Shown here piece by piece: positions 3,350 through 34,802 of a stretch of 64,000 nucleotides of DNA. Every line of letters starts with the position of its first letter. The first letter of the stretch is position 1. The translations under genes were made by a program, and so were the position numbers. Under the pieces are notes generated by a model. That model was given only the letters and a program-made list of their open reading frames with translations, did not search any database and was not told where the DNA came from. Origin of the DNA: Chlorophyllum brunneum (taxonomy: Eukaryota; Basidiomycota; Agaricomycetes; Agaricales; Agaricaceae); NCBI GenBank assembly GCA_963576785.1, contig OY756141.1, forward strand, positions 3,286,001 to 3,350,000. The letters are read 5' to 3'.

Positions 3350-6118
3350 AAAGAAAGGACCCAAGCAAATTACAATACTTGTTGACTCTGGGTGCACCCA
3401 TACATGGATAGCCCAAAGAGTGGTAGATAAAGAACAGATCCTGACTAAATCTCTTGAAATACTGATTAGGGTAATCAATGCCAACAGAACAGAAAACAAG
3501 AAAGAAGGAATCATAAATATGGCATAGCTAGTACTAAACAACAGAAATCATATGGAAAAAATCAAAGCAATGGTAACACAATTGGAAAGTGCAGATCTAT
3601 ACCTCAGACATAACTGGCTTGTCAAACACAACCCGAAAATTGATTGGACCAGCAATATACAAGATGCCCAGAAGATTACACCACATATCACAGCAACATA
3701 TAGTTCAATGAAAGAATATGCATGGTCAAGAAACACATTAAGGAAAAGAAAACTGATCAGACCAACCCAGAAGATCTACCAACATACTTTCAACAATACA
3801 CACACTAATAAAACAACTAAATATAGAACAAGATAAAACTAATGATAGTGAAATAGATAAGTGCTTACTTATCCTTAGAGATCTCAGATGACAAAGATAC
3901 AGATTTATCAGAGCAGTTGCAGTCACAAAACATGCAGGATAAGGTAGTGGATGTTGAATAATGATGATGGTAGGAATGGAAAAATTACATTTATTGGATG
4001 ATTGGAATAAGAAGATAAGAATAACATTGATGCAGTGGGTTTCTTAGTGAGGTAGGACTCTGGTGACTTGATAAAGGCTCAAGTAGATCATAGTAGTGGG
4101 TGGGGAGAGTCATTGCTATTGTTGCTAGGTACAGTAGGTTTATTATTAGGTGATAAGTCTTTTGGTCACATTTCTATACAATAAATTCTATTGGCCATTT
4201 ACTGGTGGATGAGTGCATTGAGCACAGGTCCATAGGTATACATATAGGAATAGATGTATTTCATTGTTTCTTTTGTAGTAGGCCAAGCTTTCCAACTATT
4301 GTTCCAGGTACCATAGAGGTTGTTCTCAATGGTACATAGATAAAGTCCATCAGTATCACATACATACAAGTATGGTGCATATTTCCAGGCAAGGCAAAGT
4401 AGAGAGTCAATGATGGTATTACTGGATTGTGGTGGTAGGATAAGTGGTATCACTTCAGAGAACTTATTATAGCCCCTAACATAGGTTCATGGTTTGGACA
4501 TAACAAGAACTGCAGCAATTCCTTGACAAAAATATTGCCTCAGGATGAATTTGACCATCACAATTTCCCCTATGCCATACCATACTTCTTTATACCCAAG
4601 AAGGATGGCTCAAAGCATCTGGTACAAGACTACAAGAAATTGAACAAACATACAATCAAGGACAAGACACCACTTCTGCTTATAAGTGAAGTTCTAGATT
4701 GATTAAAGGATGCCAAGGTTTTCAACAAGCTTAACATCATTTGGGGATACAACAACATCAGGATTAGAGAGAGAGATGAGTGGAAAGTAGTATTTGTGAC
4801 AAATAATGGGTTATTTGAGCTAATGGTCATGTTTTTCAGAATGAGCAATTTGCCAGCAATGTTCCAAAGAATAATGAATACATTCAGGGAGATGTTACAC
4901 AAAGGGGCAGTTGTCAATTATATGGATGACTTTGTAATTCCAGGGACAACACAAGAGAAACTTGAAGAGATAACAAAACAGTTCCTAGACATTACTGCTA
5001 AATACCAGTTATACTTCAAATGATCAAAATATCTCTTCAATGCAAAAGAAATACAATACTAAGATTTGTGGTTGGATATGACAATGTTAAAATGAAGGAG
5101 GAGAAAGTAAAAGCAACCAAATCCCTAAAAGATATTGAAGCTTTTCTAGGATTTGCAAACTTCTACTGACAATTTATACATGATGTCAGCAATATAGTGA
5201 CACCCCTACATAACTAAAGAAGAAGGATACACAATGGACATGAACAGAGCAACAACAATAGGCATTTGAAAAGATCAAGGAGAAAATTACAAGAAAACTG
5301 GTACTAGCAATGCTACAAGACAAGGAACAATACAGGGTAGAAGTAGATGCATCAGAATATGGGGTAGAAGTGGTACTATTACAGAAACAGAAGAACCAAT
5401 GGTATCTAATCACCTTCCACTCAAGAATGATGACACTAGCAGAGTACAACTACCAGATCTATGACAAAGAACTACTTGTGATCTGGGAAGCAATAAAAAC
5501 GTGGAGACAATACTTACTTAATGCCAAAAAACCATTCAAAATATGGACAGATCACAAAAATCTAGAATATTTCTGAAAACTGCAGTAACTCACAGAATGA
5601 TAAGCAAGATGGCAATTGGAACTACAAGAATACCACTATATACTGAAACACATACCCGGAAAAGCTAACACAAATGCCAATCTCCTATCAAGACTAGCAA
5701 AAATAGATACTACCTGAGACAATACCAATATTACCCTACTCCCTGACTATCTTTTTGATAATGCAATCACCAAGATCTGATAAATCTGGGATATTTCAGG
5801 AGAAGAGGACTTGAAACACTGACTATAAAAATAACCAAGGAGGGAGACACAATAGTTGAAGGAAAAGAAAAAACAACCTAAGGAGATATAGGAAACCAAT
5901 AGATTACCAATGTTTGAAGAAAGGATATACATACCACCCAACAACAAGTTACACCAGGAAATACTTCAACAACATCATGACAAAACAGATGTAGGACACC
6001 CAGGACAACACAGAATGATTAAACTTCTCAAACACACATACTAGTAGCCCCAAATATGCAACAACATCAAGCAATACATCAAGGGATGCAACATATGTCA
6101 AAGGAACAAGATACCATC
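3350..6118 (+). pseudogene. G1 pol remnant (protease, RT, RNase H, integrase zinc region)
   Basis: The protease motif is recognisable as DSGCTHT near 3390. The RT piece at 4796-5023 keeps YMDDFVIPG, so the catalytic aspartates survive in this otherwise dead copy. RNase H keeps VEVDASEYGVE (5337-5370). The integrase HHCC region is at 5930-6118. About 126 bp that G3 has between its protease and RT (36957-37083) are missing, replaced by the LTR fragment at 3809-4505. Side-by-side comparison with G3 is informative: G3 CGA-CGA at 37766-37771 reads TGA-CAA here (5167-5172), and G3 CGA codons at 38179, 38204 and 38320 are TGA here. Each is a CpG transition on one strand or the other. Confidence 0.85.
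3809..4505 (-). repeat. LTR fragment of the G2 family inside G1
   Basis: Read on the minus strand it starts with TGTTATGTCC at 4505 and aligns with the first ~700 bp of the G2 LTRs (19280 and 31681 onward). Its outer edge is exactly the LTR terminus seen in G2, but its inner end stops short of the full LTR and 126 bp of the host element are missing, so it is a truncated insertion or deletion product. A 84-codon open frame (4199-4453, minus) covers the peptide that is also encoded in the two G2 LTRs, and here it has no stop in the LLCLAWKY segment where both other copies have TGA. Confidence 0.8.
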
Positions 6119-7916: not shown

Positions 7917-8670
7917 TGACTATGAGGTTCTGAAGGTGCCATAACCTCCAACTCAAGTTCTTGAGACTTTGGCCTTGTTCGAGGAAGCTGGCTACCTTTG
8001 TGCAGACCTGATGGTAATCAATACTTCAATGGTGAAGCCTCTCCTTCAAAGGATTGGGCCAAACAAGTCAAAGAAAAGTTAGAAAAACAGAAGTCTAAGA
8101 CTGATAAGAGAGGTACACCAGAGGAATTTTACAATGACATGGTTGGCAAGATGTTGAAACTTGCTAACTGGGTTTAAGCTTGTGCCACATACAATATGAG
8201 TGGTAACAAGGGACTGGTCTTTGGGTTAGCCTTTACTTGTCTTATGGAAACTATGGTTAAATTAGGATAGTTAAATGTTTCCATTGATAACCTTGACAAT
8301 ATGCTCCAAGGCTGGCTTGGTGTCAACTTTGGCACTATGATTGTCCACACTGAGGACTGCACCCATTTATTGACCAAGGTTTCCAGTCCCCTTCCAAGTA
8401 GTTCCCATACAGTACCAACTCCCACCCCCAACTCTTTGGTACCAGCTCCTAACCTCAGGGCTGCCAAACCTAAACCCACCCCTGGTCTGGATGTCTGGAT
8501 GGACTCTGTTGAATATATCATTACTCTAGGCACCTCTGATGATTCAGATATTCAGATGGTCACCAAGTCAGAATTTAAGAAGGTCACTAAGCAGAAAAGG
8601 AACCACAAAACCAAACCAACCCTCACCAATGTCCAGACTAAGAAACCTGTGGCAAATACAAAGAAGAAGA

Positions 8671-9242
8671 TGTTGAGGAAATGACCGTAACGAGTTGTTT
8701 GCTGGGGGCAGCAGTAAACACAGTGGGAGAGAACATAGAGTCTACTCACCGAGATAATAAGCTTCTATCTGATACCTGTAGAAAGGTAATTCAGATAGAC
8801 AGATATTATTGATAAAGTGGTCAGTGTCAGAGGTGTAGAGACTAAAGTCGAGTAAATCAATGTTAGTGTTGTACTCAAAGAGATAGGCAATGATGAAGAA
8901 GTTGTTTGATTGAACAAGATACAGAACTAGGTCTGCTATATGGGGTTTATATACATATTGAAGCATAGGCAAGTTATACTACATAAAATACTAGGAATAC
9001 ATAGAATGTTCCTTATGACTCTCTTTAACTGCAGTGTAGTGCCTGCGGAGTACTGCAGAATGTAGTATCTAGTCATTGGTACTATGTAGAATAATCTATT
9101 AAGTACTTATGACTCTTAACATATGCAGAGCAACTCATTGGAAGTTACTACGGATTTGAAGTTACTGGAAAGTAAAGGATTAGTCTATTATTAGAATAAT
9201 GACTTCATAATCTATTCCTAGAATATGTCCGAAACTTCAACA
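8671..9242 (-). repeat. C1 3' LTR
   Basis: 572 bp with TG/CA ends. A 77-codon open frame on the sense strand of the element (8742-8972) has counterparts in all other LTRs of the family (see findings). Confidence 0.93.
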
Positions 9243-15432: not shown

Positions 15433-16004
15433 TGTTGAGGAAATGACCGTAATGAGTTGTTTGCTGGGGGCAGCAGTAAACGCAGTGGGAGAGAACGTAG
15501 GGTCTACTCACTGAGATAATAAGCTTCTATCTGATACCTGTAGAAAGGTAGTTCTGATAGACAGATATTGGTAATGAAACGTTCGGTGTCAGAGGTAGAT
15601 ACGTTGTAGTCGAGTAGATCAAGACTGGTGTTGTACTCAAGAAGATAAGCAATGATGAAGAAGTTGTTCGATTGAACAAGATGCAGAACTAGGTCTGCTA
15701 CATGGGGTTTATATACATATTGAAGCATAGGCGAGTCATACTACATAAAATACTAGGAATACATGGAACATTCCTTATGACTCCTATTAACTGCAGCATA
15801 GTGCCTGCGGAGTACTGTGGAACATAGTATACTAGTCATTGGTACTATGTAGAATAATCTATCAAGTACTTATGACTCTTATCATATGTAGAGCAACTTA
15901 TTGGAAGTTACTACAGATTGAAGTTACTGGAAAGTAACAGATCAGTCTATTATTAGAATAATGACTTCATAATCTATTTCTAGAATATGTCCAAAACTTC
16001 AACA
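15433..16004 (-). repeat. C1 5' LTR
   Basis: 572 bp, same ends as the 3' LTR but with many substitutions, clustered in the part nearest the primer site. Contains the 75-codon open frame at 15504-15728. Confidence 0.93.
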
Positions 16005-16546
16005 TTTGCTACTTTTCCTAGGATATGGCAAAACTCCAAAAAATCGGACACATGCACTGTATGGTTCAAAATTTGGGACTTTAAAGCAGGTTCCAATCTA
16101 GCCAAAGTCTTGGACAAGTCTCTCAACATTTATGGGGGAGTTTACCATATTATGAAAGTTAACACTACCTTTAGTGTTCTGTTCTGCACCAAATGCTGTC
16201 AGTAGGGTCATCTTGTCCTCAAGTGCCAATCTCAACTCAATGTGTATGCACACTGCAAAGGCCTACATAACACTATCAGCTATTGCTCCTTTGCTGCTTG
16301 CTGCAAAGAGAATGATAAAGCCACTCTACCTGTTGCTACCACCCCAATGGGCGAACCCTGTCCTCATAAACCCACATGTATCAACTGTGGCAAGGACCAC
16401 CTTGCTTCCACTTGTAACAAGTGCCCCTTCCAGAAGAAACATTTCAACCACAATTGGTATACAAACAAGACCCTCAAACTTTGGGCCAACCAAGGCATCC
16501 CCCCTTCCTCTTCTCTAACTGGCCAAAGTCAATCAACTGGTTTATC

Positions 16547-19279: not shown

Positions 19280-20265
19280 TGTTATGACTGAACCTTGAAC
19301 CTATGTCAGAGGTTACAACAAGTTCCCAGAAGCAATACCATTTATTCCACCACCAGGATCCAATAACACTGTCATCAACTCTCTACTTTGACTAGCTTGG
19401 AAATACATACCATACTTATATGTATGTGACACTAATGGACTCTACTTATGCACCATCGAGAACAACCTCTACAGTGCTTGGAATAACAGTTGGAAAGCAT
19501 GATCTACTACCAAAGAAACTATGTAGTATATCTACCCTTACATGTACACTCATGGTCCAGTACTCAAAGTACTCATTTACCAACAAGTCGCCGATGGAAT
19601 CTATTGTATAGAGATGTGACCTAGGGACTTATCACCAGACAATGAACCTGCTGTACCCAGTAGTGATAGTGACAACTCTTCCCATCTGCTATTGCAATCT
19701 ACTCAAGCCTTTGTCAAGTCACCCAAGTCTTACCTCTCCAAAGAACCAATCACATCAATGTCATCCTTATCATCTGACTCCAATCACCCTATGGATGCAG
19801 TTCTTCCATTGCCACCATCATCATCATCACCCTCTACCACCTCGTCCTGCATATCTTGTGACTGCAGCTGTTCCAATGAATCTCTATCATTATCATCTGA
19901 GATCTCTAAGAATGAGTAAGCACTCATCCATTTCATCTTCATCAGTTTTACTTTGCTCTATATTTAGTTGTTTCACCTTTATCAGTTTCATGTCTATCTT
20001 TAGTAGCATTTTTTATAGAAAAAGAAGTAGTTAGTATAAATAGCTGACTGTATTAGGAAGTCAAAGCTTAAGCTTTAATCTTCTACAGAAATAGCCTTCT
20101 TGATTGCCCAAGAAGAGTTTCCATTGACAGTTGCTGTCAATCAATAGAAGATTGCTAAACTGCTTATTCTCTACTTGCCCTCATCACTCAGAGCTACAAG
20201 ATAAACAGGATTCCCATTTCTTGGTTGAGTAATGACAGTTTGCTTATCCAGTTACTTGGCTAAGA
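19280..20265 (+). repeat. G2 5' LTR (at least the first 986 bp)
   Basis: It aligns with 31681-33242 once s2 and its target duplication are removed; both blocks are then 986 bp. The true right end lies somewhere between here and about 20990, and I could not locate it. The first 640 bp hold a reading frame (to TAA 19917-19919) that corresponds to the C-terminal part of ORF3, interrupted by TGA at 19389 and a few further stops. A TATA box and hairpins follow. Confidence 0.75.
20035..20077 (+). promoter_or_regulatory. G2 LTR TATA box and downstream palindrome
   Basis: TATAAATAG lies at 20035-20043 after the end of the LTR reading frame. About 29 bp further is the palindrome AAAGCTTAAGCTTT (20064-20077); the 3' LTR has a longer version, TCAAAGCTTAAGCTTTGA (33038-33055). 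A second hairpin, ATTGACAG-TTG-CTGTCAAT, is at 20123-20141. The layout fits U3, then a transcript whose 5' end can fold. The 3' LTR TATA box has mutated to TGTAAATGG. Confidence 0.6.
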
Positions 20266-21040
20266 TAGGTATTAAGACCATACCCTAGAGATTGCATCCT
20301 CTTTGATTGCCCTTAGTAGCCAAATCTGTGGTGGTAGATCAAAGCTTCTGCTGAGTCATTTTGGCATAGGGAACAAGAACCCCAGTGTTATCTGTGTCAT
20401 TGCCATTGTTGCTGAACAAGGATAACATCTTCCTGCATCATTGCCGCTGTTGCTGTTACAGGAAGCCAAGAAGAGTTGTACACAGTGCCTATCTGCCATA
20501 TAGGAGTATAACTTGCTATCAGTCACATAGGACCCACACTGTACTTGCCAGTACCTGGAGTACCCCTCAAGTTAGTAGGGCTAAGCACAAAGACCTGCTC
20601 ATAGAACATATGCTATCAACCAACTTTGTGGTTTCCTCCTTGAGAAGAAGAGAAACTTGCCTGCCATGCGTCCTGCCTCTGTATTCCCATTGAGAAGTAC
20701 TCCAGTTGAAAGAAGACCTAGAAGGAATGGAAGGTCACAACCACTAGGCTATGGAGAAGCTGTCTGTAGAGAAGCTAAACTGAGCAGCTGCCATCTAGTC
20801 AGCCAGATGATACTAGCAACCGTGAAGATGCATCATGCCTTGTTGCTGCTATGCCAGTAACAGATTCCCTCGAAAAGTGAGAGCACTCAGTAGAGGACAC
20901 CCTCAAAACCTGTTGTGTATTCCCAAGAAGTACAGAAAGAAGTTGTGAATAATTGTTGGTGAGATAAAGGTGCAACTCTGTCAAGATTGAATGAGTCTGA
21001 TGTCATGCAAAGCAAAAGGAGACTACTCCACCTGCACCTC
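20266..21040 (+). other. G2 leader region, function unresolved
   Basis: This includes the unlocated end of the 5' LTR and the primer site. Short frames exist (20385-20693, 20657-20860) but none resembles a known protein. Confidence 0.4.
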
Positions 21041-25531: not shown

Positions 25532-26102
25532 TGTTGAGGAAACGACCGTAACGAGTTGTTTGCTGGGGGCAGCAGTAAATGCAGTGGGAGAGAACGTAGG
25601 ATCTACTCACCGAGATAATAAGCTTCTATCTGATACCTATAGAAAGGTAATTTGGATAGACAGATATTATTGATAAAACGGTTGGTGTCAGAGAGGTAGA
25701 GGTCAAAGTCGATTAAATTGATTGAGGTGTTGTACTCAAAGAGATAGGCAATGATGAAGAGGTTGTTCGATTGAACAAGATACAGAACTAGGTCTGCTAT
25801 ATGGGGTTTATATACATATTGAAACATAGACAAGTCATACTACATAAAATACTAGGAATACATAGAATGTTCCTTATAACTCCCATTAACTGCGGCATAG
25901 TGCCTGCGGAGTACTGCAGAATGTAGTATACTAGTCTTTAGTACTATGTAGAATAATTTATCAAGTACTTATAACTCTCATCATATGCAGAGCAACTCAT
26001 TGGAAGTTACTATAGATTGAAGTTACTGGAAAGTAACGGATCAGTCTATTATTAGAATATGACTTCATAATCTATTTCTAGAATATGTCTGAAACTTCAA
26101 CA
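25532..26102 (-). repeat. s1: solo LTR of the C1 family
   Basis: 571 bp with TGTTGAGG and CTTCAACA ends, lying in the integrase of G2. The 5-bp duplication CCAAC at 25527-25531 and 26103-26107 is perfect, as expected of a Copia insertion reduced by LTR-LTR recombination. Contains the 76-codon LTR frame (25603-25833, minus). Confidence 0.95.
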
Positions 26103-26569: not shown

Positions 26570-29500
26570 CACCCACTACAACTCTGTGCAGGACCAACCA
26601 TTCAATGCAAACATCCTTGAATAACTACCTCTGCTGATTGGAATAGAGAATAGGACTTGGGTCAACTTCTCTCTCTTAGAGATGATGGAGTCACTCAAGA
26701 ATACTTCAAATTCTTCTGCCCCTGGCCCAGATCATCTTTCCTGGTCCCACCTTAAACAGATTGTCACTATCAATACCTGCACTGACCTTTTCTTGCATAT
26801 CAGTTGTGCGTGCCTGTCACTCAGGCACTGGCCATCACACTTCAAACAATCAACATTGGTGATTATTCCTAAGCTGAACAAACCTGACTACTCTACCCCA
26901 AAGGCATTCCAGCCTATTGTTCTTCTCAACACACTCGGTAAACTGGTAGAAAAGATGTTGGCCAAGAGACTACAATTTGAGGCAGTGAAGTTCAAGGTCC
27001 TCCATCTGCATTAACTAGGGGTGATCAGACAAAGGTCTACAGAGGATGTGGGCCTTTTCCTTACCCACATCATCCGGGAAGCTTGGACAAAGAAGAAGAT
27101 ATTGGTCTTAGTATTTGACATTGCCCAATTCTTCCTCTCCCTCAATTACAATCTCCTCACCAATATTCTTACATGACAAGGTTTTCCCTCTCAAATTGTG
27201 GCCTTCTTCAATAACTATCTAAAGGAACAACACACTACCTATTCATGGAACAACAAGACTTCCCCTGAGTTTGATGCAGTGGTTGGTGTGGGTCAGGGCT
27301 CAGCCCTTAGCCCTATTCTTTCTGCCCTCTACCTCACTCCTCTCCTCCAAATCTTTGACATTTGCATGGAAGAACACCACAATAAGTGGGACTTTGATGT
27401 CTTATCCTATGTAGATGATGGTACCCTCATTGCCCAATCCCCCTCCCTCGAAAACAATGTTGAGATCCTCCAACATATGTACCATGAGATGGAATGCCTC
27501 TTGAACAAATTTGGTCTAGTCATAGAACACAACAAGTCCGAAGTCTTCCACTTCACCCACAGAAGGCAGGACTCCAATCCCTCTATTGACCTAGGTTCTC
27601 CCCCATTCACAGGTTGTACCCCCCTGAAGCCAAAGACCCATTGGTGCTATCTTGGCTTTTATTTTGACAGGACACTATCTTTCAAAGAGCATGTCCAGTA
27701 CTATTCTGCCAAAACTATATCATCTATTAAGGCAATGAAAATGCTCAGCAACTCTGTACGCAGCCTTTCCCCCCACAACAAGAGAGTCCTATATAGATCA
27801 TGTGTTGTCCTGGTGGCAACATACAGCTACTGAGTATGGTTTCATGACAAATCCTGTACCAAGGGTACTTGTGAAATTCTCAACAAAATGTAATGTAGAG
27901 TAGCCCTTTGGATCACTGGAATATTCTGTACCTCTGCCACTGGTGGCATTGAATCTCTTGTGGGACTCATGCCCATCAAACTGCATCTCCGCAAGTTGGC
28001 TGAATGACAAACATCAAGAATTCACACTTTGGATGATGAACATGCACTGGCAAGATTGACAAAAGAGTATCATTCTTCCCCCCACTGACTTCACATCAAG
28101 AATTTCACGGAAATTCAGAAGAAGAAGACACTTGGAGCTGTGATGGATGTTTCATGCCCCACCCCCAAGACTCATTATGTAGAATCTTTCAACTCTGTTT
28201 CTAAGACTCTCTGGCCTGGATATAGGTTACTGGACTATTTTTCTACTAATGTATCTTTCATAGGATTCAACCAGGACAACCCCTACCTCTCAAAGACTAT
28301 TTGGGATAATGTAACGACAAACATGATAACAGACCCCAAGTCTATTATCATTGGCATGGATAGCTCAGTTCATCCCAACCCCAACCTGCTTTCCAGCCAG
28401 TACATGGCGGCAGCCACCATTCAATACCTGGATGGAGAAAGTTCAGCTATGAAGAGGCTTGGAGGAACTACATCCACTGACATCAAACTAGTCACACAAT
28501 ACCTAGGCATCACCAAGGTTCTTGCCACAGACAACTATGAGGAGGTTGAACACATCCATGTGTTCACCAACTCTCTCATGGCCTCTTGGCTCCTTCTTGA
28601 TAGCTTGCCACACTCTTGTCAGTGGCAATCCATCCTCACCTCAAAGGTGCTCCTAACTTGGTTCAATAAGTCAGACCAACACTGCCTCTCATTTTATCAC
28701 ACTCCATCCAAATGCAAATATGGGATTCAACAAGCCACTCATAACTGGATACAAACAGTTGCCTGGCCAAACCAAAGTTGAAATCACCAAGTGTCCAACT
28801 CAATAGACTTCTTATGCAAAAAGTCCACCAAATGCACCATCCACACATGGCAAGCCATGTTTAGGTTCAAGAAATACAGTGGTAGCTCCTTCCTCCACCT
28901 TCCGGTGCAAGTGAATGGGGCCTCTGCCTTACTGTCACACATCAACTCTGGTCCTTGGATATGGGAATGCAGTTACCAGTCTCAGCTTTTTGCATGAGCT
29001 TGCTGCACTATACTATGTCATGCCCCAATTGGAGAGTACTACCTTAGGTTCTTCTCTAATGAGGATTTATCATGCCACCACTGCGAAAACCAACTGGTAC
29101 AAACCAGGACGCACATCCTCCACTGGTGTCAGAACTTTGATCACCATTATGGTGTTGACACTATCAAGAAGTTTATCAACTTCTTATGTTACAATCCTGC
29201 TGCATTCAGCTTCCCTCCAGAGCCTGTTCGCCCTTGTATCTGCACTGGTTCAATACCCCCATTGCATCATTGTCAAGGCCACCAGAGGTTTGGGTCCATG
29301 CCTGCATGAGTCCTTTCCTTTCTAAATCCTTTTTCTTATGCTCTCCCAGTTATGGACTTCACAATTCATTTCTCTATCTCTCCCATTCCCGCTCATCTAC
29401 TATTTTATGATAGTCCATCATTCCCATAGTGTCTGGGCAATACCTCTCTACATGCTAGTACCATTTGTTGTTCCCCCTTGTGCTTGCAAGTCAATAGTTT

Positions 29501-29754
29501 CCCCTCTATCAATTTCTTTCTCTCACTCTCTCTTTTCTGATCTCTTTTCTCTCTGCTTTTCCTGCTGATCAACTTAAGTACCAAACATCTCTCTAGTGTA
29601 CATGCTAGATGGCACTGAGTCTCATGGGGTTAGTTTACTTATAGTCTACTTTCCTTGCTCCAAATATTCTGTATGTTCTGCTTTTGTATGTATGTACATG
29701 TGGATTGCAATTGAGCACCATTATATAAATTGATGAATTTTTTAAAAAAAAAAG
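26570..29754 (+). mobile_element. L4: 5'-truncated LINE in the G2 integrase
   Basis: It begins just before the RT domain, runs through ORF2 and a 3' UTR and ends in poly-A at 29744-29753. The 12-base duplication defines both borders. It lacks ORF1 and the endonuclease. Compared with L1 the frame has about ten stops, most of them TGA where L1 has CGA or another CG codon. Confidence 0.92.
26640..29325 (+). pseudogene. L4 ORF2 (RT, RNase H, zinc motif), broken
   Basis: It reads MMESLKNTSNSSAPGPDHLS into the RT, with YVDDG intact near 27410. RNase H follows but its first acid sits in GMDSSVHPNP instead of GTDGS. FTNS replaces FTDS, so a catalytic Asp is lost, and the zinc motif CHHCENQ is at about 29073. 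Stops fall at 27013 (TAA), 27174 (TGA), 27832 (TGA), 27892 (TAA), 28006 (TGA), 28086 (TGA), 28779 (TGA) and 28995 (TGA). It is inactive. Confidence 0.9.
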
Positions 29755-29766: not shown

Positions 29767-30246
29767 TACCTGTGAAATCATGGCTAAATGAACTGCAAAT
29801 TATAGGTTACCAAACTTTAACAAAGGGGATAAAGTTTGGCTAGAAAACAAACGCCTACCAATAAACTTTGCAAATAGTAAAATCACCCAAAGAAGGGAAG
29901 AACCTTTCACAATCATTAAGAAGATCTCACCTGTTGTGTTTCAGCTAAAATTACCTGAAACATAGAAGATCTATAACAAGTTTCATGCCTCTCTTCTTAC
30001 CCCTGCAATCAAAAACATGATATATGGATGACACACATCTCAACCCCTTCCTCTCCTTGTTGATGATCAAGAAGAATACAAAGTCAAGGCCATTTTTCAC
30101 CATAAAAGGATAAATAATCATTTCAGATACCTAATCAAGTAGAAAGGCTACCACACTTCCAAAAATTCATGGGAACCTGCATCAAACCTCCAAAATGTGA
30201 AGAACATACTTGAGACCTATAAAAGAGCTCACAATATCTGAACTCA

Positions 30247-31680
30247 TCATGTCTCTCAACACCTCCAATACTTGCCTAGCCTCAGCACCAGCCACCACAG
30301 CTACTGTTATTAATACCACTGAAGTCACCACCAATATCATCAATGGACTGCCTGTACCACCAGACCTTGATGATATCCTCCTCTCATTGCCCAAGTATTC
30401 CATCACCCTTAACAATGAGGAATTTATCCAGCCCATTGGATTACAGCCACATACCATCCCTCCCCTACTTGATATTGAATCTGCATATGATACTGCCTGC
30501 CTACAACTTTGAAACACTATCAAAAGACAATTATCTGATCACCACCCCAATCTATGAGAGGATAACACATCTGTTGCCCATTGCAATGAATACAGGAATT
30601 TGCTTGCTACTTGCCTTCATAATATGCAAATGCTTAGCCAATACACCTACACCATACAACAAAGCTACAACATCCTTACTAGCTGCACTCTATCCAATGG
30701 AGTACATGAGGATTTGCAATGCATCCAATACTTCTATTAACTTCTCTGTTGCTCAATTAGCACTACCCTTAGTGCACATAGGCAGCCCTTTATCAACTCC
30801 TAATGTTTCCCAACTACCCACTCGAAACAATGACCAGCCTCAAGAACCTTTACCAGAGTCTCACCCCATATATCCCATATCAAAAATCTCTTGAGGCCTT
30901 CCTTTCCATAATGCCACTAACAATGGTAATCCAACTCATCAATCAACTCCGGTTCAAACTGATGCCCAAATAGAGCATAGACTCATCGAACCTATGTCTG
31001 TCCAAGGCTACCCTGCATGTCATTACCCACCTTGATATGAGCATGAACCACCTGCAGTTCCACTCAACTATTACCAGACTATCTGAGATCATCACCGGTA
31101 TCATGACCATGAAAATAAAAGATCCCACCAGATTTCCTATACTGCAGCAACAATTAACCCAACTCCACAAGTTCATAGGCAGCCCATATGAAGCATCTAA
31201 CCTCAAAATACTTGACTTGTACTACAAAGCTGACCTAACTATGATCAATGATATGGCCAAACTACCACTCTGGCTTATCAAACCCAACAACTGGATCCTG
31301 ACATGCAAGAATTATATAATTGACATGATGAGGTCATCAGCTGTATTCACAGTTCCAGAAATGGAGCAAATACTTGAAGCTATTGTACTATTAGGCTCAT
31401 GCCTCCCAACCCCAATAGACACTGGTGCTCCAGAACTGCCACCACTAGGACCCAAAATGGCATCTTGCCCCCTCTACCATCTGCCATCTCAACCTTACTA
31501 CCCTACTAGGATGAAGGCCATTACAAGGATCCCTTCTCAGATGTTAGAAGTGGCCAATCACATTAGATACTAACCTGTTGAACTGTATGGAGTTGAAGAA
31601 CTCCCCAAGGACAGTCCTTACTACCAACTGCCCAAGATTGAATGTAATGAAATGGAATTCATTACTAACAAAGGGAATAA
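30247..31680 (+). pseudogene. G2 ORF3: unrecognised protein downstream of pol, reading into the 3' LTR
   Basis: I do not recognise this protein. It begins near ATG 30250 (MSLNTSNTCLASAPATTATV) just after the pol chromodomain. The first frame is open to 30512 and resumes with a few stops to about 31070. A frame change leads to a 178-codon open stretch (31037-31573) containing LHKFIGSPYEASNLKILDLY and NWILTCKNYIIDMM. After a TAA at 31571-31573 the frame continues (ELYGVEELPKDSPYY, KIECNEMEFIT), reads through the purine tract AACAAAGGGAAT and crosses the LTR border at 31681 without a shift (VMSKPRTYIRGYNKF). No signal peptide or clear membrane segment is evident, so I do not call it an envelope. 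Confidence 0.62.
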
Positions 31681-33242
31681 TGTTATGTCCAAACCTCGAA
31701 CCTACATTAGAGGTTACAACAAGTTCCCAGAAGTAATACCACTCGTCTCACCACTACAATCCAACAATGCCATCATTGACTCTCTACTTTGACTAGCTTG
31801 GAAATATGCACCATACTTACATGTATGCAATACTAATGGACTCTACATATGCACCATTGAGAACAACCTCTATAGTGCCTGGAATAACAGTTGGAAAGCA
31901 CAACCTACTACCAAAGAAACTATGCAGTACATCCATCCTTACATGTACACTTGTGGTCCAGTGCTCGAAGTGCTCATTCACCAGCAAGTTGCTAATGGAA
32001 CCTATTGTATAAAGATGTAACCTAGGGACTTATCACCAGACAATGAACCTGCTGTACCCAGTAGTGACAGTGACAACTCTCCTCATCCACTATTGTGATC
32101 TACTTGAGCCTTTGTCAAGTCACCCAAGTCTTACCTCTCCAAAAAACCAATCACATGGATGTTATTCTTATCATCCAACTCCAATCATCCTATGGATGCA
32201 GTGTTGAGGAAACGACCGTAACGAGTTGTTTGCTAGAGGCAGCAGTAAATGCAGTGGGAGAGAACGTAGGGTCTACTCACCGAGATAATAAGCTTCTATC
32301 TGATACCTATAGAAAGGTAATTCGGATAGACAGATATTATTGATAAAACGGTTGGTGTCAGAGAGGTAGAGGTCAAAGTCGATTAAATTGATTGAGGTGT
32401 TGTACTCAAAGAGATAGGCAATGATGAAGAGGTTGTTCGATTGAACAAGATGCAGAACTAGGTCTGCTATATGGGGTTTATATACATATTGCAACATAGG
32501 CGAGTCATACTACATAAAATACTAGCATTGCATGGATTGTTCCTTATGACTCCTTTCAACTGCGGTGTAGTGCCTGCAGAGTACTGCAGAATGTAGTATC
32601 TAGTCATTGGTACTATGTAGAATAATCTATCAAGTACTTATGACTCTCATCATATACAGAGCAACTCATAGGAAGTTACTACGGAATAAAGTTACTAGAA
32701 AGTAACGGATCAGTCTATTATTATTATAATGACTTCATAGTCTATTTCTAGAATATGTCTGAAACTTCAACATACAGTTCTTCCATTGCCACCATCATCA
32801 TCATCACCCTCTACTACCTTGTCCTACATATCTTGTGACTGCAGCTGTTCCAGTGAATCTCTATCATCATCATCCAAGATCTCTAAGAATGAGTAAGCAC
32901 TCATCCATTTCATCTTCATCGGTTTTACTTTGCTCTATATTTAGTTGTTTCACCTTTATCAGTTTCATGTCTATCTTTAGTAGCATTTTTTATAGAAAAA
33001 GAAGTAGTTAGTGTAAATGGCCGACTGTATTAGGAAGTCAAAGCTTAAGCTTTGATCTTCTATAGGGATAGCCTTCTTGATTGCCCAAGAAGAGTTTCCA
33101 TTGACAGTTGCTGTCAATCAATAGAAGATTGCTGAACTGCTTATTCTCTACTTGCCCTCATCACTCAGAGCTACAAGATAAACAGGATTCCCATTTCTTG
33201 GTTGAGTAATGAGAGTTTGATAATGTTTGCTTATTTGGTTAC
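31681..33242 (+). repeat. G2 3' LTR, truncated by C2 and split by s2
   Basis: It starts TGTTATGTCC directly after the tract AAAGGGAATAA and aligns with the 5' LTR up to GTTAC at 33242, where C2 begins. s2 occupies 32202-32772. Relative to the 5' LTR there is an 8-bp insertion near 33230. Confidence 0.83.
32202..32772 (-). repeat. s2: second solo LTR of the C1 family
   Basis: 571 bp, very similar to s1. Its target duplication is TGCAG (32197-32201) and TACAG (32773-32777). The undisturbed site in the 5' LTR of G2 (about 19798) reads TGCAG followed by TTCTTCC, so one copy of the duplication has mutated G to A. Contains the 75-codon LTR frame (32273-32497, minus). Confidence 0.93.
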
Positions 33243-33508
33243 TGAAAGATTTACACTCTGTCTCGAAGTGCAAAGACTGACTTATATTACTATACCTGAA
33301 AGATTTACACTACAAGTACAAGGTTAGGTAGCTTATACCAGGGAATGTAGACTGAGGTGTCAAACAGGGAATGTGAGGACTATATACCAAAGCTGAGACA
33401 TTACCGGAAATGAAGAAATTCACCGAGTCATTACAAAATGACATTACTCCTTTTCTTGCAGCTCATTTACACCTGAACACTTGTCGGTGCATGTTTGTCT
33501 ATTTTACA
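33243..33508 (-). repeat. C2 3' LTR
   Basis: Right end at 33508 (TTTTACA) next to the purine tract AGTTTGAGGGGGAG on the minus strand, which is the classic Copia 3' junction. The left end is taken at TGAAAGATTTACAC (33243) because the G2 sequence stops there. The same 14-mer recurs 50 bp inside, at 33293. Confidence 0.78.
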
Positions 33509-33515
33509 CTCCCCC

Positions 33516-34691
33516 TCAAACTGCAACAAGCCTGAGCTCATTTGCAAAGTGCTTCACCTTGGGTGAAGGTAAGGCTTTTGTTAAGATATCTGCAATCATT
33601 TCCCCAGTGGGGCAATAGATTAAGCAGATTTTTCCTTCTTTAACTACCCATTGAATAAAGTGGTAGCAGATGTTGATATGCTTTGTACAACCATGAAACT
33701 TATGGTCCTTTGTGAGCGAAATAGTAGATTGATTGTCAGAGAAGAGTGGTGTAGTGGGAAGGGTTACTCCATAAATCTGAGAGATAAGTGAACAAAGCCA
33801 CAAGGCTTCTTTTGCAGTATGAGTTGCAGCTATATACTCTGATTCTGTGGTGGACAGGGTAACAATTTCTTGGTGTTTTGCACTCCATGAAATGGCACCA
33901 CCATTGATGATGAATGCAAAACCTGAAGTTGCATGTTGATCTTCAGCCATGTTCCCATCTGCATCAGAAAAACCTTCTAGAGCATCTCCTTGACCTCCAA
34001 AGGTCAGCCGTAGCTCTCTTGTGCCTTTCAAATATCTGAAAACTCTCTTTATGGCCTCCCAATGCTCTTCTCCTGTATTCTTCGAAAACTTCGAAAGAAC
34101 TTGGATTGTGAAGGTAATATCCGGTCGAGTAGCAATCACTGTATACATAAGTGAACCTACAGCTTCTTGGTAGGGAATACAAGTCATGCGAGTGATTTCG
34201 GCAGTCGATTTCGGTGATTGATTGGTGGAGAAATGAATGGATGGATCCATAGGGATGCCAACTGGTTTAGCATCCTCAAAACTATATCACCAAAGACACA
34301 AATCAATGTATGACCGTTGAGACATATATAACTTGCCTTTCTCTCAATTTCTTCGAATTTCAATCCCTAAGAGCCAATGAATTTCTCTAAGATCTGTCAC
34401 CTCTACAAATTCATTCATCCTTTCTTTCAACTCCTTAATAAATCTAAGTTTTGTTGTCACAAGAGTACAGTCATCCACAGGAACAAGGATAATAACTAAG
34501 TCATCTTGGACAAAACAAAAGAAGACTGCATGGTCAACATCACAACACAAATATTCTAGGTTGTTAATGAGAATTTCACAGAGACATTGGTACCAGCATC
34601 TTCCAGATTGTTTAAGACCATAAAGTGTCTTCTTGAGATGACAGACATAGTGGGGATGAGTAGAGTCAGGGAAACTGGGAGGTTGACACAT
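33516..34691 (-). pseudogene. C2 pol fragment (RT end and RNase H)
   Basis: RT piece at 34691-34344 with LYGLKQSGRCWYQ; the catalytic YVDD reads VPVDDCTLV. RNase H piece at 34250-33516 is a 244-codon open frame with GFSDADGNMAED, TLSTTESEYIAATHTAKEAL and FSDNQSTISLTKD. The break between 34344 and 34260 contains stops. The 5' part including integrase is beyond L5 and not in the window. Confidence 0.9.
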
Positions 34692-34802
34692 ATAGACAAT
34701 TTTGTCATTATTTAATTTACCATTTAGGTAAGCTCCCTTTTTTTTTTTTTTTTTTTTTTATCAACAATTTATATAGTGGTGCTCGAATGCAGTCCACATG
34801 TA

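Follow-up and report, generated by a model that had tools for sequence, protein, structure and literature searches.

A probable third open reading frame ending inside the LTR of a decayed chromovirus from Chlorophyllum brunneum

In the 64,000-nucleotide stretch of Chlorophyllum brunneum DNA analysed here (the window, in whose coordinates positions are given unless stated otherwise), a retroelement of the family we call G2 carries an open frame that lies downstream of pol and appears to run without interruption into the 3′ LTR. Does this frame represent a gene that ends within the LTR, and if so, how much of it lies outside? Lentiviral nef and MMTV sag provide the classical examples of such an arrangement: these accessory genes of vertebrate retroviruses, whose functions are known, have coding sequence in U3, 5′ of the promoter. 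Here, we present evidence that G2, a decayed chromovirus family of a fungus, in all likelihood has a third ORF that terminates within the LTR.

The G2 element and the edges of its LTR

G2 is a decayed family of Ty3/gypsy chromoviruses, as judged from Pfam domains and LTR structure in C. brunneum (38.9 Mb covered, in 14 contigs). The genome shows 22 matches to hydrophobins, which mark it as fungal. Retrotrans_gag, RVP_2, RVT_1, RT_RNaseH, Integrase_H2C2 and Chromo all score over their Pfam cut-offs, and rve scores under its own; G2 has the gag, protease, reverse transcriptase, RNase H and integrase with C-terminal chromodomain by which chromoviruses are defined. Searching the genome yielded one complete relative, L071 (C9:878820-888672), with 1,137-bp LTRs that are 95% identical to each other, have the ends TGTTA...TAACA and are flanked by the target duplication GCAGG. 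Matching target duplications are also seen in elements L037/L014 and L073/L028, such that TG...CA ends and 5-bp duplications are present in three G2 elements. Because ends and duplications agree in all three, the edge of the LTR is secure, and it falls inside the reading frame. In the window copy, whose 3′ LTR is truncated, the edge is placed from the three other elements. The supposed LTR pair N072/L044 lacks a target duplication, and six of ten predicted 5′ LTR places held no LTR.

In the window, the 5′ LTR of G2 (19280..20333, plus strand, its end placed by alignment to L071) contains a U3 with the coding frame, followed by a TATA box. The 3′ LTR (31681..33243, plus strand) is both interrupted and truncated. 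The chromodomain closes pol at 30101..30241 (plus strand; PF00385, with E=5.4e-16 for the corresponding L071 piece), and at least 90% of 22 copies share the pol stop at 30239-30241. This last observation bears on the idea that pol itself once reached the LTR by read-through or frameshift, with the LTR part serving as an integrase tail. There is precedent for such an extension in plant chromoviruses, according to the available portions of PMC3059260 and PMC3605345, but in G2 pol terminates after a complete chromodomain, about 1.4 kb before the LTR, and we regard this possibility as very unlikely.

Other insertions have broken up the window copy. A LINE-like sequence that includes an RVT_1 domain and is A-rich at its 3′ end lies within pol (26570-29754, placed by alignment to L071), and a high-copy LTR-like insert of 571 bp (32202-32772, plus strand) breaks the frame under study. 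The same 571-bp sequence is also seen at 25532-26102, 8671-9242 and 15433-16005, and near-full copies at 94–95% identity account for 39 of the 41 matches listed genome-wide, the window itself apart. A divergent fragment of the G2 LTR on the minus strand (3811..4505), at most 78% identical to the other listed copies, contains the same frame. By eye, open stretches at 33516-34757 on the minus strand resemble copia-type reverse transcriptase and RNase H, and element L037/L014 appears to sit in an LTR like that of the L082 family, discussed below.

A frame with a common terminator in U3 and probable past constraint

We find in G2 a reading frame, here called D, with a common terminator, stops that are nearly all explicable as decay, and past constraint on its LTR part. 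A preliminary description had this frame pass a purine tract and run unshifted into the LTR, whose first base would complete an Asn codon. Our data bear this out: codon 31679-31681 is Asn, its third base is base 1 of the LTR, and the purine-rich tract directly 5′ of the LTR (31667..31680, plus strand) lies within the coding frame. The junction from 31601 to 31760 is free of indels in 22 of 28 aligned copies, the window copy and one near-duplicate included. In the 3′ LTR, frame D occupies 31682..32896 (plus strand), split by the insert at 32202-32772 and ending with TAA at 32894-32896. In the 5′ LTR it spans 19281..19919 (plus strand), a contiguous run of 212 codons plus terminal TAA, or 213 including the stop. 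The length of about 213 LTR codons given earlier is thus correct for the 5′ LTR, while in the 3′ LTR the run is split by the 571-bp insert, and both LTRs of the window hold in-frame stops. The minus-strand fragment has the same frame from 4504 downward, as described, with 84 open codons at 4453-4199 and then a stop. Of the two peptides said to be common to all three LTR copies, CTIENNLY is indeed found in each; PTTKETM is found in two, the 5′ LTR reading STTKETM. Position 31574, formerly taken as the beginning of the frame, is no natural start, since the stop that precedes it is a sense codon in other copies.

In a 92-row alignment of LTRs, frame D ends with TAA at LTR 638-640, before the TATA box, and this terminator is conserved in 88 of the 90 rows with letters there. 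In 43 of 52 LTR rows, the TATA-like string TATAAATA comes only after the frame has ended, in agreement with the order proposed earlier. The arrangement is that of nef and sag, with a constrained coding frame in U3, 5′ of a promoter inferred from the TATA-like string. Among 19,389 codon cells in the 92 rows there are 332 stops, and for 325 of them C-to-T or G-to-A steps would lead there from a sense codon that the column contains. Every codon column of the LTR part has at least one sense codon; fixed stops, named at the outset as a sign against a coding frame, are not seen in the LTR part. No stop-free row was found among the 72 ungapped rows, each of which has 1 to 7 stops. Rows L069 and L070 were dropped at an earlier stage. 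Genome-wide, we find at least 150 matches to the LTR part (150 of 277 candidates scored) and 56 to the pre-LTR part, fragments counted, or more than two of the former for each of the latter; a good number of the LTR-part matches must therefore be solo or truncated LTRs.

Heavy decay of the C-to-T type, strongest at CpG-like sites, is evident in 52 LTR rows and seven LTR pairs, suggesting methylation or RIP-like mutation of repeats in C. brunneum. Two measures of selection were set aside. A transition-based dN/dS of about 0.46 (six of 28 copies left out) has the same bias as differences within LTR pairs, which should post-date insertion and gave 0.48 (z=4.6). Likewise, codon-position diversity was rejected, as the changes within pairs show an equal excess. 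Within-pair rates at CpG-like sites are nearly equal over the three codon positions (2.52, 2.43 and 2.02). This control is imperfect: it comprises seven LTR pairs, three of them proven by target duplication, and its totals include the failed pair N072/L044. An earlier transition and codon-position test left out 12 of 28 copies; another was restricted to LTRs spanning positions 1-3 to 620, outside the window's own loci, and five duplicates were then removed from its 52 rows. In fungal repeats decayed at CpG sites, dN/dS and codon-position signals taken from transitions may thus be deceptive, and comparison within LTR pairs, together with shared transversions, offers a useful control.

Transversions after insertion are rare (1 in 1,569 sites in the three proven LTR pairs), and those common to two or more elements should hence mostly pre-date insertion. 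In the LTR part of frame D, 17 columns have shared transversions (92 rows, one species), which fall on codon positions 1, 2 and 3 in the ratio 1/2/14. Twelve are synonymous and five nonsynonymous, compared with an expected synonymous fraction of 0.168 (p=1.4e-6), which corresponds to a dN/dS of about 0.08, far from the value near 1 that would have argued for a non-coding LTR. The first copy set alone, retrieved chiefly with DNA or the pre-LTR peptide as query, gives 1/0/12 (p=3.2e-6); 40 later copies alone give 1/1/7 (p=0.0012), with the reservation that these had been chosen by their rank of similarity to a frame-D peptide, so that conserved copies may be over-represented. The other two LTR frames show no transversion signal (p=0.76 to 1). 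Non-coding LTR sequence (641-959, filtered) has seven shared transversion columns, distributed 5/1/1 in the same phase, with no third-position excess; before block filtering, flanking DNA had contaminated this control, which then gave two of the frames p-values of 0.003 and 0.009. Blocks below 72% identity were removed from the filtered non-coding and 92-row LTR tests, and one near-identical row was merged. Because shared transversions fit the codon phase in frame D only, the LTR part was most likely protein-coding and constrained while the G2 family was active, as judged from these sequence patterns. At LTR 527-640, which includes the Ser-rich end of D, no separate transition signal is seen, and codon usage points to a different frame.

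Could the frame nevertheless have stayed open by chance in a decayed LTR? Long off-frame ORFs do occur elsewhere in the element, and the transition signals are context artefacts. Yet chance would have to account for a common terminator, for codon columns that all keep a sense codon and for shared transversions that follow the codon phase in each of the two copy sets, and we consider it extremely improbable.

Two frames between the chromodomain and the LTR

Upstream of the LTR, the situation is more complex. The preliminary description placed ORF3 at 30247..32896, which would imply a single ORF from an ATG near 30249 into the LTR. This is not supported: the ATG belongs to a different frame, here called N (30249..31566, plus strand), which lies one base off D and has a stop at 30528 in 20 of 22 copies and then a column with at least 90% stops at 31564. 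The window copy is missing 5 bases near 30780; in copies without that deletion, D corresponds to N+1. In frame D before the LTR (30223..31680, plus strand), which upstream of about 31150 is no more than a candidate coding frame, none of the columns reaches 90% stops among the 22 copies. Its stops are of the C-to-T or G-to-A kind in 77 of 86 cases; the other nine are not decay-type and fall mostly in one column. Nearer to the LTR, at 31190-31680, decay-type stops make up 30 of 31. Four shared transversion columns are found at 30790-31680, distributed 0/1/3 over codon positions. For these pre-LTR counts of transversions and stops, and for the non-coding control above, six of the 28 copies were dropped, five as disrupted and one as a near-duplicate.

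Codon usage, trained on 1,009 codons of L071 pol, favours D from about L071:8220 to 9180, with a peak in the LTR and with the exception of two windows (8520-8580). Farther upstream, preference alternates N, D, N, D, with N favoured in two stretches.

These data allow us to weigh a gene encoded by U3 alone, which would start at the ATG at LTR 5-7 and specify about 211 residues, the open frame upstream being separate or unused. That ATG is present in 86 of 92 rows, and the selection signal is strong in the LTR only. Against this, pre-LTR frame D lacks any fixed stop column, its stops at 31190-31680 are decay-type with a single exception, codon usage favours it over all but two windows, and three of its four shared transversions are at codon position 3. 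We therefore judge a gene confined to the LTR to be unlikely.

It is also possible that N and D are parts of one gene. Translation would open in N, at the ATG at 30249, and pass to D through splicing or a +1 shift, the LTR tail then being made only in the processed or shifted product. Over 30249-31564, columns with at least 90% stops number one in N, none in D and 25 in the third frame (22 copies), and codon usage favours the two frames in turn. A candidate intron of 55 bases at 30706-30760, starting with GT in 11 and ending with AG in 21 of the 22 copies, would connect N to D. However, 19 of the 20 stops at 30528 are no simple decay step from the sole sense codon seen in that column, which suggests that N may truly end there, after 93 codons. 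Moreover, stops common to L071 and the window occur at ten of 485 columns in N versus none of 484 in D, D alone could be one ORF, and long off-frame ORFs also occur elsewhere in L071. A joined gene is accordingly a minority possibility, worth keeping in mind. Besides splicing and frameshifting, dual coding or a short separate ORF could account for the presence of N beside D at 30249-31566. In its fullest form, the proposal would make G2 a fungal chromovirus with a retrovirus-like accessory gene whose two frames overlap and whose long form, produced by splicing or frameshifting, has a U3-coded C-terminal part. We hold this to be rather doubtful. If such a two-frame accessory gene is real, fragments of a protein gene, well over a hundred in number, have been spread across the genome by solo LTRs (at least 150 matches).

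Product, origin and relation to known systems

What might the third ORF encode? Pfam includes models of Nef and Sag, and scans of the ORF3 pieces indicate no relation to either; no family scored over its cut-off, the best being DUF5715 (E=0.087). The L044 piece and profile A1 retrieved no ORF3 homologue from the protein collection, in which pol has 2,290 relatives. There were likewise no ORF3 relatives in viral contigs, phage records or PDB sequences, and no relatives of G2 pol in viral contigs. Two pieces from the window were modelled with too little confidence for their structures to be of use (mean pLDDT 47.2 and 34.6). No strong membrane segment is seen in the downstream part of D, where hydropathy over 19 residues peaks at 1.36; a more hydrophobic stretch (2.31) is limited to the doubtful upstream part. 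The last 97 residues encoded by the 3′ LTR of L071 include 29 Ser and 16 acidic residues. Together, these features are consistent with a soluble protein in an accessory role, neither enzyme nor envelope, whose Ser-rich acidic end would be its LTR-coded tail. Of the accessory protein first proposed, the U3-coded C-terminal part stands, based on past purifying selection; a product of the Nef or Sag type finds no corroboration.

In the model we favour, in which a third ORF ends in the LTR, frame D would run 3′ of the chromodomain, pass unshifted through the purine tract, take its last 212 codons from U3 and end before the TATA box. Its product would come solely from transcripts that begin at the 5′ LTR and extend through U3 of the 3′ LTR. 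The other U3, which precedes the promoter in the 5′ LTR, would be a silent by-product of reverse transcription.

How such a gene could arise is hinted at by L082, a high-copy chromovirus in the same genome (G000:C11:1991600-1994600) whose reverse transcriptase matches are 39–51% identical to G2. Like G2, the L082 family has a third ORF, itself conserved, after the chromodomain (ORF3, 1024-1857, devoid of Pfam domains), with at least 139 matches (139 of 500 candidates scored), about three quarters of those listed being free of stops. No sequence relation to the G2 pieces was detectable. Unlike the G2 frame, this ORF ends at L082:1860, roughly 107 bases before an LTR of just 309 bases (L082:1968-2276, defined by inverted ends and a common 3′ match edge), in contrast to the 1,137 bases of the L071 LTR. 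Because L082 combines a short LTR with an external ORF3, and G2 a long LTR with an ORF3 partly inside, a move of the priming site is suggested for G2. A once-separate third ORF may have been partly swallowed when the plus-strand priming site shifted upstream into the gene. We consider this origin about as probable as not. The pair of families, one with an ORF3 that stops just short of the LTR, makes the swallowing of a gene by an LTR testable.

A figure legend on fungal Gypsy elements in PMC2864245 mentions one further ORF whose function is unknown; G2 shares such an extra ORF, and extension into the LTR is not mentioned in the available parts of that paper. The available parts of PMC10787394, PMC5408684, PMC1142308, PMC11963269 and PMC7264820 describe no such layout for a separate ORF. 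More generally, we found no separate ORF entering the LTR of a fungal chromovirus in the open-access literature, most subscription papers being outside this coverage. As a layout, LTR-stored coding sequence is already known in chromoviruses. The polyprotein of CRM group A elements, which belong to plants, reaches into the 3′ LTR (PMC3059260), and a similar coding extension is seen in Beetle7 and several Bingo elements (PMC3605345), as reported in the sections of these papers available to us.

Finally, G2 can be compared with these systems. Like CRM group A, it is a Ty3/gypsy chromovirus with a coding frame that traverses the polypurine tract into the 3′ LTR. In CRM group A, gag-pol itself extends, and the LTR encodes a CR motif that replaces the chromodomain; whereas, in G2, pol ends after a canonical chromodomain (Chromo, PF00385), and it is a separate downstream frame that enters the LTR. 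With nef and sag, G2 shares the U3-coding layout, with no sequence relation found. A past protein-coding extension of a downstream ORF into the U3 of a fungal chromovirus is well supported by our analysis. A layout encountered earlier in vertebrate retroviruses and in the gag-pol of some plant chromoviruses is now seen in a separate downstream ORF of a fungal element.
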